From assembly GCA_029858305.1 (NCBI GenBank), contig JAOUFI010000006.1, positions 1 to 64,000 of the forward strand: DNA of 64,000 nucleotides. Reading direction: 5' to 3'. Each line of letters starts with the position of its first letter. The first letter of the stretch is position 1. Source of the DNA: Candidatus Thorarchaeota archaeon. Lineage in GTDB: Archaea; Asgardarchaeota; Thorarchaeia; Thorarchaeales; Thorarchaeaceae. The notes below the pieces were generated by a model. The model was given only the letters and a program-made list of their open reading frames with translations. It was not told the origin of the DNA and searched no databases. This document shows, in pieces, positions 7,076 through 61,935 of the stretch. The position numbers were made by a program, and so were the translations under genes.

Positions 7076-8110
7076 TCACGGGAATTCGGTCTCAATAAAC
7101 TGAACATCTTGTGCCAATGTGGCACGTGGTGATCCGTCATGTTTTGTAGCTTTACCAACAGTCCAACAGGGCAGACCTTGGTCTGCTAGGAGCTCCTGGA
7201 ATTGATCAACTTTTTCAGGTTCCATAAACACAAGCATTCCGCCTGCAGTTTCAGCACCATATCCAGTTGATAATTTGTGACCAAAGAAATTGGCAAGTTC
7301 AAGCGTTCCTTTAATCACTGGAACTCGATTGATTACAACATCAACACCACTTAGAGAGCTCACATTACTTGCATGACCAAGTAGACCAAATCCAGTGATA
7401 TCAGTTGCAGCATTGACCCCGACTTTGTTCATCGCTTGAGCAACTTCAAAATTGCTCTGGGTCATAATGCGGACTGCATTTTCTTGCATTCTTAGCAAAG
7501 CAAGTTCGTCAAACTCAGCCAGCAGCATTTCACGTTTCTCATCCTTAAGGTCCCTGTAAGACCTCATAGCAGACTGAATACCAAGTGGTTTTGTTAGCAC
7601 TGCTATGTCGCCAGGATGTGCCCCACTAGAGTAAACAACATTTCGTGGATGGGTCACTCCTAAGGCGATTCCACCAAAGACCGGACAAGGATTGGTGATC
7701 GTTTGACCCCCAGAGAGTTTCGAACCAAGATCCGTCATAAAGCTGTTCATCCCCTTTAGGACATTAGCAACAATATGCTCGGGCAAGTTGTCGGGATATG
7801 CGAGGAACGCCTGTAGCGAGAGAATATTGGTAACTCCCATCGCAAACACATCGTTTGTGGCATTGCACGCGATGATTTTACCCTGAATGATGGGGTCATC
7901 GTGAATGGGTGTAAAGATGTCGACGTTCTCTACGACTGCTACTTCATCATTGACGATGCGGACCACAGCATCATCGCCCACCTCACCTTCACAGGTTGTT
8001 CCTTGTGAGAGAAGGCCAGCAGCCTGTAGAAGTCTTATGAGATCATCCTGTTTGACCTTACAGCTTCAACCATGAGTTGTTACCATTGCAGTGAGTCGCA
8101 CTTCAGCCAC
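7076..8110 (-). CDS. selD: Selenophosphate synthetase, probable selenoprotein (in-frame TGA = Sec15)
   Basis: SelD makes selenophosphate from selenide and ATP, the selenium donor for selenocysteine tRNA. A plain reading begins only at residue 36 (GTG, 7981), but the frame continues upstream with SelD-like sequence through one TGA at 8066-8068. The upstream residues read RLTAMVTTHG-TGA-SCKVKQ, aligning with the catalytic GCGCK segment of other SelD proteins, where the first Cys is often Sec. Thus TGA is Sec15, followed by Cys17 and Lys18. Downstream GDDAVV, DIFTPIHDDP, GQTITNPCPVFGG and DITGFGLLGHA are canonical. The start is GTG at 8110, with AAGGAGGA at 8123-8130; an in-frame ATG AGT CAC TAG precedes it directly. 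Total length is 344 residues. It is divergent from rtcB. This implies the organism has the Sec machinery; no other part of it is in this window. Confidence 0.88.
8066..8068 (-). other. In-frame TGA codon, predicted selenocysteine 15 of SelD
   Basis: TGA lies between GGT (Gly14) and AGC (Ser16), two codons before the conserved Cys-Lys of the SelD active site. All other codons from 8110 to 7079 are sense codons, so this is the only interruption and it sits exactly at the known Sec/Cys position. Confidence 0.85.
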
Positions 8111-8286: not shown

Positions 8287-9732
8287 ATGGACATCAAGAA
8301 GGTCGCTGAAAATATCTATGAAATTCCGAAGGGCACGCAACCATGCATGAGAGTACCTGTTAGAATCTACGCATCAGAAGATCTTGTTAAGAAGATGAAA
8401 CAGGATGCAACTTTCACCCAAGCAACCAATGCAGCTTGTATCCCAGGAATCTACACACATAGCATTGTACTCCCTGACGGACACCAAGGCTATGGGTTCC
8501 CTATTGGTGGAGTTGCAGCAACTGATTATGAGAATGGTGTCATCTCCCCAGGCGGAGTTGGGTATGATATCAACTGTGGAGTCAGAGTGTTGAGAACGAA
8601 TCTTGACGAGAAAGATGTCAGACCTAAAATCAGGCAGCTTATTGACCAACTTTTCGCGGATGTTCCAACAGGTGTAGGAAAACAGGGCAAGATCAATCTA
8701 CAATCTCACAAGGGTGTGGATGAGGTGCTCAGCGGAGGGGCGAGATGGGCTGTTGAAGAAGGTTATGGTTGGGAGGATGACCTTGAGAATCAAGAGGCTA
8801 ACGGTAGGCTAGATATTGCTAATCCTGCAGATGTACCAGGTACTGCAAAGGAGAGAGGGCTCAAGCAAAGCGGAACACTTGGTTCTGGCAACCACTTCCT
8901 TGAGATTCAGCTTGTTGATGAGATATACAATGAGCAGGCCGCTAAAGTGATGGGCATTACGAGGAAAGGACAAGTCATGGTTATGATCCATAGTGGTTCT
9001 CGTGGACTTGGACATCAGGTCTGTTCTGAATTCATACGTGTTATGACTCAAGCTATGAGGAAGTACAAGATTGACTTGCCTGATAGAGAGCTATGCAGTG
9101 CACCTACAACATCGCCAGAGGGACAGGCCTATCTAGGTGCAATGAGCGCTGCAGCAAACTATGCTTTTGCCAATCGCCAAGCAATGATGCACTGGACAAG
9201 AGAAGCTTTCTCAAAGATCATGGGTCAGTCGCCCGAGGATTTAGACATGGGACTGATATACGATGTCGCACATAATATGGGAAAGGTAGAGGAGCACGAA
9301 ATTCAAGGAAAGAGGACCAAGGTTGTGGTTCACAGGAAAGGTGCAACTCGAGCATTTCCACCAGGGCATCCCGATATTCCTTCAAAATATCGAAATATTG
9401 GACAGCCAGTAATTATACCAGGCACAATGGGAACTGCATCATACATTCTATTGGGAAATCAACGTAGCATGGATCTCTCATTTGGTTCGACTGCACACGG
9501 TGCTGGACGCTTTCTTAGTCGCACACAGGCAAAGAGGAAGTTCTTTGGAAAAGAGGTACAGGACCAGTTGGCTACTGAAGGTATTATAGTAAAAGCTACT
9601 CAAGGAGTGGTCATAGCTGAAGAAGCTCCAGGAGCCTATAAGGATGTAGACGAGGTGGTTCGGGTTTCAGACTCTGTGGGGATTGCAACCATGGCAGTGA
9701 GACTACGTCCCATTGGCGTCATCAAAGGATAA
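8287..9732 (+). CDS. rtcB: RtcB RNA ligase (tRNA-splicing ligase)
   Basis: RtcB joins a 2',3'-cyclic phosphate end to a 5'-OH end using GTP and Mn2+. In archaea it seals tRNA exon halves after the splicing endonuclease cuts. The 481-residue protein has full family length and no intein. Motifs seen: LPDGHQGYGFPIGGVAA (62-78), GGVGYDINCGVR with the metal-binding Cys97, GSGNHFLEIQ, MIHSGSRGLGHQV, YDVAHNMGKVEEH, HRKGATRAFPPGHPD (His-guanylation region) and FGSTAHGAGR near the C-terminus. The ATG at 8287 follows a leader with a TATA box. Its 3' end overlaps the convergent EamA gene by 30 bases. A tRNA gene with an intron lies in the same window at 61741-61858, a natural substrate. Confidence 0.97.
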   Translation: MDIKKVAENIYEIPKGTQPCMRVPVRIYASEDLVKKMKQDATFTQATNAACIPGIYTHSIVLPDGHQGYGFPIGGVAATDYENGVISPGGVGYDINCGVRVLRTNLDEKDVRPKIRQLIDQLFADVPTGVGKQGKINLQSHKGVDEVLSGGARWAVEEGYGWEDDLENQEANGRLDIANPADVPGTAKERGLKQSGTLGSGNHFLEIQLVDEIYNEQAAKVMGITRKGQVMVMIHSGSRGLGHQVCSEFIRVMTQAMRKYKIDLPDRELCSAPTTSPEGQAYLGAMSAAANYAFANRQAMMHWTREAFSKIMGQSPEDLDMGLIYDVAHNMGKVEEHEIQGKRTKVVVHRKGATRAFPPGHPDIPSKYRNIGQPVIIPGTMGTASYILLGNQRSMDLSFGSTAHGAGRFLSRTQAKRKFFGKEVQDQLATEGIIVKATQGVVIAEEAPGAYKDVDEVVRVSDSVGIATMAVRLRPIGVIKG

Positions 9733-11615: not shown

Positions 11616-13643
11616 TTAATCCTCATCTTCACCTGAATCGACGAAATCTAGTAGACGACTCAGTTCATCTAATGATTCATTATTTATAGGTGAGTTCTCA
11701 GAGTGCTGCTTAGTGTCATTAGAATCTTTTTTCTTGGTTCCACCTACAGCACTATCCAGAGGGCCGAGAATAAGCTCTAACTCCTCAAGTGACTCGGCAT
11801 CAATCTCTTCTCGAATGTCGGACTCCCCCTCGGTAGGAGTAGCCTCATCACTCTTAAATGCTTCAAGAGCTTCATCGATTTCAGTATGAGAAACAAGATC
11901 AAGTTCTGCGGAGATGAATTCATCGGCCTCGAGAGCTTCGAATATAATTTCTTTGGCCATTTTTACGCCTCCGTTGTTTTCTTCAGCAATCGGTTCTATT
12001 CCGAGTTTCTCTTCAGGTGGAAGTTCCTCTTCAGCAAAATCGATTTGTGGTAATTGTTCTTCTACTTCTATCGAAGATTCTTCCTTTGGCAATTCAATGG
12101 AAATATCCATGGAGATTTCATCAATCTCTTTCGACTCCTCCATGTGGGAGGGTTCAAATCCTTCACCCTCTTCCAATTGCATGCCTGTCGCAAAAGCATC
12201 TTCTTCTGTAGTCTGGTCCGGTCCTATTGCTTCACTGAGAGCATCAGCTTTAGCAAGTTCGACTTCTTGGTGTATCAAATGTTCCTCAGAGAACTCTACT
12301 TCTAGAGGAAATGATTGAATCTCTGCTTCAAGCGGAGATACAGAGATTTCTACTTCCTCCTCTACTTCCTTAGTTTCCTCTATAATGGCCTCAGGAATCG
12401 GTTCAGAAGATGCAATCTCATCTTCGACTTTTACTTCAGGCTCGGGTTCAAAGAATTCTACTTCCGCCTCTGCTTCCTCAATCTCCTCTAACATCACATC
12501 AGGAGCTAGTTCCGGAGAAACAATCTCTTCTTTTGTTTCTTCTTCTTCAAAGAGATCTTCATCTACTTCTTCAATGACTTCTTCAATTATCTCATAGTCA
12601 TTTAGGTTCTCAATGACATGTCCATCTTCGTCAACCAAGACTTCCTCGACCACTTCAATAGTCTCGAATTCAGATTCTTCAATCTCTGCAGTTTCCCTTC
12701 GTTCCTGCATCGCATCTGTCTCAGCTATCGCTTCCTTGGTTGCGGCATCTGTAAACTTCAAGAGCTCGGATGCCGGAAGATCCGGAAGAGCAACACCAAC
12801 ATATTGTGCTGCAGCAGTCATCAAAATCCTTAGCATCTCATCACGCCTAGCCTTGTCAATTGCAACCATTGGAAAGGTAGGAATTCCTAGTATCTTCTGA
12901 ACGACCTCAGGTTTCATAGCGTTTGGTTTATCCTGTTTATTAGCCAGAGCAAAGACGGGAACCTTCGGAGCGTCTCGTTTAATGAGCTTGAGAATGTCCT
13001 TACTGATTATCACGTTACGAAGAGCTGAATCACAAACTAAGAAGATTACATCAGCTCCATGGAAATAGAATCGCCATAGTGTTCGAAAGCGCTCTTGTCC
13101 TGCAAAATCCCAGAGGACAAGACTGTAGTTGCCAAATCTGATGTTTTCAACAGTTTCAAGATTGAGAGCTATTGTTGGGACATATTGCAGTGGTGGTGTG
13201 TCTCCAAGTAAAAGGTGGAGTGTTGTTGTTTTTCCAACACCACCCTCTCCAACTAGCGCAATTTTCAATCTGGTGGTCACAGATGGTTCAACAAGTTTTT
13301 CATACCCTTGCTTCACAGCGTCAAGTCCTGATTTTTTCAGCTCCTTTCTCATGAGCTTCGATGCAGCTTCAACCTTCTCGAATATGCTTGATTCGTCTTC
13401 TCCTTTATCAGTAACAAACAGTAAAAGAAGGTCTGAAACCAAGTCCACTCCATGAAACTTGTGATCTCCTAATATTAGTGCTAGACTTTCTAGATGCGTA
13501 TCATTGCTCTTTTCAGAACGAAGTTCTTCCCTTGTTTTGACATATTCGCTAAGAATCTCATGTGACACATCAACGGGCCAATATTTAGTGAATGCAATTA
13601 TTTCTTGTGTTGAGATGCGTATAAGGAAGGTGTTGTGAATCAC
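11616..13643 (-). CDS. Ras-like GTPase with N-terminal domain and 360-residue acidic tail
   Basis: Three parts are visible in 675 residues. Residues 1-120 form a mixed alpha/beta N-terminal region (FLIRISTQEIIAFTKYWPVD, then LALILGDHKFHG and LLLLFVTDKGEDESSIFEK) that looks longin- or roadblock-like. Residues 125-290 are a GTPase with P-loop GEGGVGKT (132-139), WDFAGQE (178-184, catalytic Gln present) and NKQD (235-238). Residues 310-675 are an extremely Glu/Asp-rich, presumably disordered tail with short loose repeats (such as EEVEISV and VEEVLVDEDG). The start is GTG. No lipidation Cys is seen. The Gln in G3 makes it a normal hydrolysing Rab/Arf-type switch; the tail may bind membranes' or proteins' basic surfaces (inference). 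Confidence 0.85.
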   Translation of the reverse strand: MIHNTFLIRISTQEIIAFTKYWPVDVSHEILSEYVKTREELRSEKSNDTHLESLALILGDHKFHGVDLVSDLLLLFVTDKGEDESSIFEKVEAASKLMRKELKKSGLDAVKQGYEKLVEPSVTTRLKIALVGEGGVGKTTTLHLLLGDTPPLQYVPTIALNLETVENIRFGNYSLVLWDFAGQERFRTLWRFYFHGADVIFLVCDSALRNVIISKDILKLIKRDAPKVPVFALANKQDKPNAMKPEVVQKILGIPTFPMVAIDKARRDEMLRILMTAAAQYVGVALPDLPASELLKFTDAATKEAIAETDAMQERRETAEIEESEFETIEVVEEVLVDEDGHVIENLNDYEIIEEVIEEVDEDLFEEEETKEEIVSPELAPDVMLEEIEEAEAEVEFFEPEPEVKVEDEIASSEPIPEAIIEETKEVEEEVEISVSPLEAEIQSFPLEVEFSEEHLIHQEVELAKADALSEAIGPDQTTEEDAFATGMQLEEGEGFEPSHMEESKEIDEISMDISIELPKEESSIEVEEQLPQIDFAEEELPPEEKLGIEPIAEENNGGVKMAKEIIFEALEADEFISAELDLVSHTEIDEALEAFKSDEATPTEGESDIREEIDAESLEELELILGPLDSAVGGTKKKDSNDTKQHSENSPINNESLDELSRLLDFVDSGEDED

Positions 13644-30829: not shown

Positions 30830-31429
30830 ATGCCCGTTGAATCAAAATCCACCTTGTTAAGATTTATTCAGCTTTTGCCAGAGATTCCACCAACAGGAGA
30901 TTTCCTCCTTAAGGATCTTCCAGGAACAGGTAATCGTATCGATGTTCTGTGTCGTGATTTAGCGGCATGCTTTGATTGGGGTCCAACAAAATGGTCATAT
31001 TCCCAGTTGGAACTAGTTGCGATATTCAGTAACGAAGTTATCCTCACTTTCAACAAACCGTCAAACGATCTACCACTTGGAGAAATGGGATGGGCAAAGG
31101 ACATCAAGGAAGCCCTGCAAGGGAAACCTCCAGATTATATCAAAATCAGTAAGAATTCTTTAGAAACCATAATTAAGAGATTCAACAAGCCACCAAACTC
31201 CCAACTTTGGATTCTTCATGAGGAAGGAAAGCCATTCAGTGACTATAAAATACAGGTTTTCAAAACGCAGAACAGTTTTATGCTTGGAGATTATAGAGGC
31301 TTCGATTCCCAGACAGAAGAGCTCATATCCAAATATGATTTGAGAAGGATGTCACTAGGAAAAATAAGCTATCTTAGTAGTCATTGCGTGGTTTCAATTA
31401 TCTCAAAATTTGAAAGGATGGTCAAATAA
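30830..31429 (+). CDS. trmY: tRNA (pseudouridine54-N1)-methyltransferase TrmY
   Basis: 199 residues of SPOUT-fold family. Recognition: GDFLLKDLPGTGNRIDVLCRDLAACF near the N-terminus and the knotted C-terminal part (SFMLGDYRGFDSQTEELISKY). TrmY methylates N1 of pseudouridine 54 in archaeal tRNA T-loops. The T-loop of tRNA-Leu at 61741 carries an intron, so this modification must follow splicing in that tRNA. It is followed, with a one-base TAATG overlap, by a PadR regulator. Confidence 0.85.
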   Translation: MPVESKSTLLRFIQLLPEIPPTGDFLLKDLPGTGNRIDVLCRDLAACFDWGPTKWSYSQLELVAIFSNEVILTFNKPSNDLPLGEMGWAKDIKEALQGKPPDYIKISKNSLETIIKRFNKPPNSQLWILHEEGKPFSDYKIQVFKTQNSFMLGDYRGFDSQTEELISKYDLRRMSLGKISYLSSHCVVSIISKFERMVK

Positions 31430-61660: not shown

Positions 61661-61742
61661 CAGTGATATTACAAGAGTGGGAGATCAGTATTCTCATCGG
61701 GCCGTGGTCTGGCGACGAAGGTTAGATCTGAGAAAAGAAATG

Positions 61743-61755
61743 GTGCGGAGGGCGA
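61743..61755 (+). repeat. 13-bp tRNA-Leu 3' end segment matching 59833-59845
   Basis: GTGCGGAGGGCGA in the tRNA 3' half, direct repeat of the copy at 59833; possible att-type core. Confidence 0.45.
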
Positions 61756-61758
61756 GAT

Positions 61759-61788
61759 GTGTTCCGACTCGGGGGAATCCCGATTCGC
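61759..61788 (-). other. tRNA intron in the T-loop (bulge-helix-bulge type)
   Basis: Around the splice sites the precursor can form exon GTTC / intron GAAC (4-bp central helix) with bulges AA|G at the 5' site and AC|A at the 3' site, and an intron stem CGA-A-TCGGG / CCCGA-G-TCG. That fits a bulge-helix-bulge cut by the archaeal splicing endonuclease. Intron begins GCGAATCGGG and ends GGAACAC. Confidence 0.85.
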
Positions 61789-61935
61789 TTGAACTCGCGA
61801 ACTCCTACAAGATAGGGATCTGAACCCTACGCCTTTGACCAGGCTTGGCAACCTCCGCGCATTTCGAACTTTTCTGTAAGTACCTTTTAACCATATCGAG
61901 CTTGCTTAATCATTAGTCAGATGTTAGAAAATAAT

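Follow-up and report, generated by a model that had tools for sequence, protein, structure and literature searches.

We judge it very likely that the 64,000-nt stretch of Thorarchaeota DNA analysed here (the window) carries a functional single-copy gene for tRNA-Leu(CAG), that this gene is interrupted in its T-loop by a noncanonical bulge-helix-bulge (BHB) intron at position 58/59, cut by EndA and joined by RtcB, and that the intron belongs to a class common in Asgard archaea. The sequence, position, conservation and pairing of the intron are established, as is the presence of genes for the enzymes.

Gene and intron layout

The pre-tRNA-Leu(CAG) gene occupies positions 61741–61858 on the minus strand (118 nt with the encoded CCA), as judged from the sequence, from ARAGORN on the spliced form and from the orthologues. 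Exon 1 (70 nt, G1 to A58) lies at 61789–61858 and exon 2 (18 nt, A59 to CCA) at 61741–61758, separated by the 30-nt intron at 61759–61788. The anticodon CAG, read from the sequence and called by ARAGORN, is found at 61820–61822, and a putative promoter with the TATA-like motif TTAAAAG, picked out by eye, at 61884–61890, 26–32 nt upstream of G1 (all on the minus strand). Reading along the gene, T54-T-C-A-A58 is followed by the intron GCGAATCGGGATTCCCCCGAGTCGGAACAC, then by ATCTCGC, the acceptor strand and the encoded CCA; removal of the intron joins GCGAGTTCAA directly to ATCTCGC.

Neither ARAGORN nor the Rfam tRNA model found a tRNA in the 64,000-nt window, and ARAGORN made no call on the unspliced tRNA-Leu(CAG) sequence. 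With the 30 nt removed it reported tRNA-Leu(cag) of 88 bases, an ordinary tRNA. The intron coordinates 61759–61788 proposed in a sequence-only reading of the window were correct. When BHB pairing was taken into account, the deletion at 58/59 clearly outscored every other contiguous 30-nt deletion, and it alone restored an ordinary tRNA and a BHB together. The spliced-form call, the deletion scan and the orthologues described below all bear out the proposal that the T-loop of tRNA-Leu(CAG) holds a genuine BHB-type intron.

Proposed precursor fold and candidate splicing enzymes

Exon residues G53 U54 U55 C56 (61791–61794, minus strand) pair with GAAC of the intron (61761–61764) in a 4-bp GUUC/GAAC central helix, flanked by the two bulges that carry the splice sites: the 5' bulge AA^G (61788–61790), where the cut is placed by the BHB rule, and the 3' bulge region AC^AUC (61756–61760), which comprises 5 nt as long as the T-stem keeps its register. 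The intron itself forms an internal hairpin h' of 8–9 bp (61765–61787, pairing 61787–61779 with 61773–61765 and one mismatch). The BHB had first been read with 3-nt bulges on both sides; the 3-nt 5' bulge (AAG) and the 4-bp helix stand, whereas a 3-nt 3' bulge is reached only by a 2-nt slip of the T-stem. The structure therefore departs from strict hBHBh', in which both bulges have 3 nt and the outer helix is stable, and we class it as a relaxed BHB: with the T-stem unslipped the 3' bulge has 5 nt, and for the window sequence the slipped 3/3 form is 3.3 kcal/mol worse than the one in register. The minimum-energy fold, which is 1.8 kcal/mol more stable than the BHB form, does not contain the central helix; the enzyme would therefore need to capture or stabilise the BHB form.

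The window's own genome (G000) carries two EndA genes. The first (alpha) aligns without gaps in the loop to the Aeropyrum alpha subunit and retains Tyr, His and Lys; its K43-P44-K45 stands opposite K44-P45-R46 of A. pernix, and 29 other members of the family all keep this KPK motif unchanged. The second (beta) is without the catalytic His, and an alpha/beta pair is present in most genomes of the family. Judged by these residues, the enzyme is predicted to be an (alpha-beta)2-type EndA, made up of separate catalytic alpha and structural beta subunits, with a lysine motif like that of the 'Crenarchaea-specific loop' (CSL). K44 and R46 act in the CSL, the loop Lys is conserved in CSL enzymes, and the CSL has been linked with diverse introns (PMC12397907). 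As defined there, the motif is a loop Lys with Pro/Val and then a basic residue after it, which KPK matches; as the motif is present in Asgards, the loop is not restricted to Crenarchaea. The window also encodes, on the plus strand, the candidate exon ligase RtcB (8287–9732, PF01139, E=2.6e-176) and a TrmY-family protein, of the family of T-loop position 54 methyltransferases (30830–31429, PF04013, E=5.8e-13), both as the sequence-only reading had it. Adjoining RtcB at 7076–7981 is an AIR synthase-like protein that resembles selenophosphate synthase.

The tRNA-Leu(CAG) precursor is predicted to be spliced. After transcription it would fold into the relaxed BHB, with exon G53-C56 paired to the intron GAAC; both bulges would be cut by the (alpha-beta)2-type EndA with its CSL-like loop, and RtcB would then join the exons. 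T-loop enzymes including TrmY would act afterwards: splicing probably comes before T-loop modification, since U54, U55 and C56 are held in the central helix.

Orthologous locus and alternative readings

The comparison covered 47 genomes of the same family. Matches to the 5' half of the tRNA-Leu(CAG) gene came mainly from Thorarchaeota MAGs. Intronless CUN-type tRNA-Leu genes in the 47 genomes measure 84 nt when the 3' A and CCA are not counted, while introns in this gene type occur at 30/31, 43/44, in the 3' part of the variable arm, at 53/54 and at 58/59. For the Leu(CAG) copies, the 58/59 intron is present in three genomes (G000, G019 and G023); 19 copies have no intron, eight have one at 43/44, four in the variable arm and one at 30/31. 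The gene adjoins cbiQ-cbiO and/or asnC-eIF5A in most family genomes, intronless syntenic orthologues included, and because the neighbors are the same in most genomes we regard it as largely one orthologous locus.

A survey of this tRNA in related genomes had been proposed as a check on the intron, and it located the insert at the identical position in two sister Thorarchaeal genomes, G019 and G023, with hairpin pairs changing together in a compensatory manner. A tree of eIF5A and AsnC places the three 58/59-intron genomes in one clade (0.998 support), sister to intronless genomes. The 58/59 intron of Leu(CAG) probably goes back to a single gain in the ancestor of G000, G019 and G023, where we infer gain as opposed to loss. 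Intron change can also be recent, since within one very close group G041/G042 and G044–G046 differ in the presence of the 43/44 intron. With introns at four positions or more in some genomes and none in others, this one orthologous tRNA gene makes a good study system for intron gain and loss.

Several other tRNA genes showed unusual arrangements. L163 (Leu-GAG of G028) holds two introns in one gene, at 43/44 and 58/59, and L080 (Leu-GAG of G005), L226, L232 and L235 each hold several apparent introns, which brings their precursors to about 150 nt or more. The variable-arm introns of L032 (Leu-CAG of G032) and L102 (Leu-GAG of G023) are nearly identical (28/30 bases) across two genera, a likeness between Leu isoacceptors that suggests intron transfer or gene conversion.

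Three other readings of the Leu(CAG) locus have to be weighed. If it were a dead or decaying tRNA copy with a short insert, CUG would be read by another tRNA; Leu(UAG) of the window's genome could do so by wobble, and truncated tRNA 3' ends with T-loop introns exist, one in G000 (C119:41878–41920) and two in G027. However, the exon stems are all intact, the insert has kept its position at the orthologous locus in three genomes with compensatory hairpin changes, and CUG is in use (64 of the 7238 codons sampled). A second intact Leu(CAG), named in the sequence-only reading as a finding that would speak against the intron, was not found in the genome, which is about 89% complete and in which we identified only three CUN-type Leu genes (CAG, GAG and UAG). 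A dead copy is therefore very unlikely.

A real intron spliced instead at 59/60 would give the T-loop TTCAAGT; ARAGORN accepted this form equally, and position 59/60 is named in PMC4090602. Against it, the cut sites given by the BHB rule are AA^G and AC^A, and A59 is found in nearly all paralogues and intronless orthologues, which makes this register highly improbable. We regard 58/59 as the preferred register on the basis of the BHB rule and the near-universal A59 of the paralogues. Retention of the insert in the mature tRNA, where it would lengthen the T-arm, is scarcely credible: the insert does prolong a stable hairpin stacked on the T-stem, but the D-loop/T-loop elbow would be destroyed, the conserved GAAY central helix would be purposeless unless cut, and the genome encodes the splicing enzymes.

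Introns at 58/59 across Asgard genomes

A covariance model built from four T-arm introns (R1) had matches in 52 of 227 Asgard genomes, nearly all within recognisable tRNA genes and in many isotypes. With a second model (R2), built from 87 R1 matches and applied at E<=0.01, matches were obtained in 131 of the 227 genomes, including 29 of the 45 high-quality ones. The comparison sample was the phylum of G227, identified via its Nitrososphaeraceae record, which we take to be Thermoproteota, and was filtered in the same way as in the Asgard search. There R2 had matches in 14 of 398 genomes; since the model is Asgard-trained, the true contrast is smaller than this ratio by an unknown margin. All 16 matches were again in tRNA context. 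The sequence-only reading had described T-loop introns as rare and mainly a feature of Thermoproteota, and at 58/59 these counts from the Asgard-trained model point the other way: inserts at this position are common, not rare, in Asgard archaea.

The upstream 7-bp acceptor-stem partner, a feature absent from the search model, was present for 102 of the 104 Asgard introns examined. Over 83 distinct sequences 93.9% of pair cells were paired, in an alignment that was fitted to the model and favours structure; in slid controls of this alignment pairing dropped to 33–53%. The same sequences contain 313 double-change cells against 89 expected from shuffles, and the central helix GUUC/GAAC was paired in 98.8% of cells. 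Given this strong covariation in the class and the same position in three genomes, the window insert is beyond chance.

In full tRNAs of G000 we found four 58/59 introns, that of Leu(CAG) and those of Thr(GGT) (C205:190481–190527), Val(CAC) (C95:3051–3097) and Ser(TGA) (C205:206576–206621). Apparent introns at 53/54 were noted in L024 (Thr-CGT) and L029 of the same genome, the latter also with an anticodon-side intron. At C119:41878–41920 of G000 lies a truncated tRNA 3' end, L251, whose T-loop intron is degraded and which has no partner acceptor strand. On contig C64 of G027, L296 comprises two tRNA-Leu 3' ends (11898–11960 and 12377–12439), each with a T-loop intron, arranged as a direct repeat spaced 479 nt around a small ORF. 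They may be remnants, integration scars or split-tRNA halves; no matching 5' half was found, and the split-tRNA reading was set aside.

At 58/59 the exon contributes GUUC to the central helix in essentially all cases, and this pairs with GAAY of the intron, whereas at the other intron positions in Leu genes the exon half varies between genes. An intron ending in GAAY is portable because of this near-constant GUUC, which suggests that 58/59 is a landing site independent of isotype, by way of the invariant G53-U54-U55-C56. Only tentatively do we extend this to a general landing site for a mobile family of Asgard introns of about 30 nt that passes between isotypes. The core of the window intron is 87% identical to the tRNA-Ala(UGC) intron of G028 and 74% and 70% identical to its own orthologues, in a search that favours look-alikes. 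Among introns of dissimilar tRNAs, 24 pairs reached 75% identity against none in the null, although in a few of these pairs both tRNAs are of one isotype and an early intron is present. Because the window intron and its relatives served as seeds for the model, the cross-isotype similarity is biased, and this bias together with shared structural constraint could account for part of it. An integrase-driven origin is not supported in these genomes: Phage_integrase (PF00589) is absent from G000, G019, G023, G027, G002 and G005, and where it occurs elsewhere it was never on the contigs of the introns examined. If the mobile family is real, a hairpin that ends with GAAY and two further bases would yield a cleavable BHB in almost any tRNA, and introns would pass from isotype to isotype, through reverse splicing or gene conversion for instance, without host adaptation.

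T-loop introns as such are already known from Crenarchaeota/Thermoproteota, for example at 56/57 in Pyrobaculum and at 59/60 (PMC4090602). They share with ours the BHB-type structure in the T-loop and a broad-specificity (alpha-beta)2 EndA; here, in contrast, the host is an Asgard archaeon, the site is 58/59, and the frequency is far higher (131/227 against 14/398 genomes, with the Asgard-trained model). Noncanonical tRNA introns of Asgard archaea are likewise known, being abundant in Atabeyarchaeia and Freyarchaeia, many at noncanonical positions, according to the accessible part of PMC11291895; those are other Asgard classes, and in that part the T-loop site and the GUUC/GAAY pairing are not singled out. 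Transposed tRNA introns of Thermoproteales (Fujishima 2010, cited in PMC4033280) also involve similar introns in different isotypes, whereas the Asgard evidence is suggestive only, owing to the search bias. The T-loop-permuted tRNAs of Thermofilum and Cyanidioschyzon have a BHB junction in the T-loop as well, at 59/60 (PMC3218864), but their genes are circularly permuted, while tRNA-Leu(CAG) is in normal order here. In the literature searched, no paper was found that treats Asgard T-loop introns as a class, although one may exist elsewhere, nor any that gives the 58/59 frequency, the shared docking pairing or the Thorarchaeal locus series.

Essential Asgard tRNAs are missed by standard finders, here ARAGORN and Rfam at its gathering threshold, which distorts tRNA counts. 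The shared pairing also points to a simple explanation for the accumulation of introns at a single T-loop site across many isotypes, and does so in the archaea that are nearest to eukaryotes.
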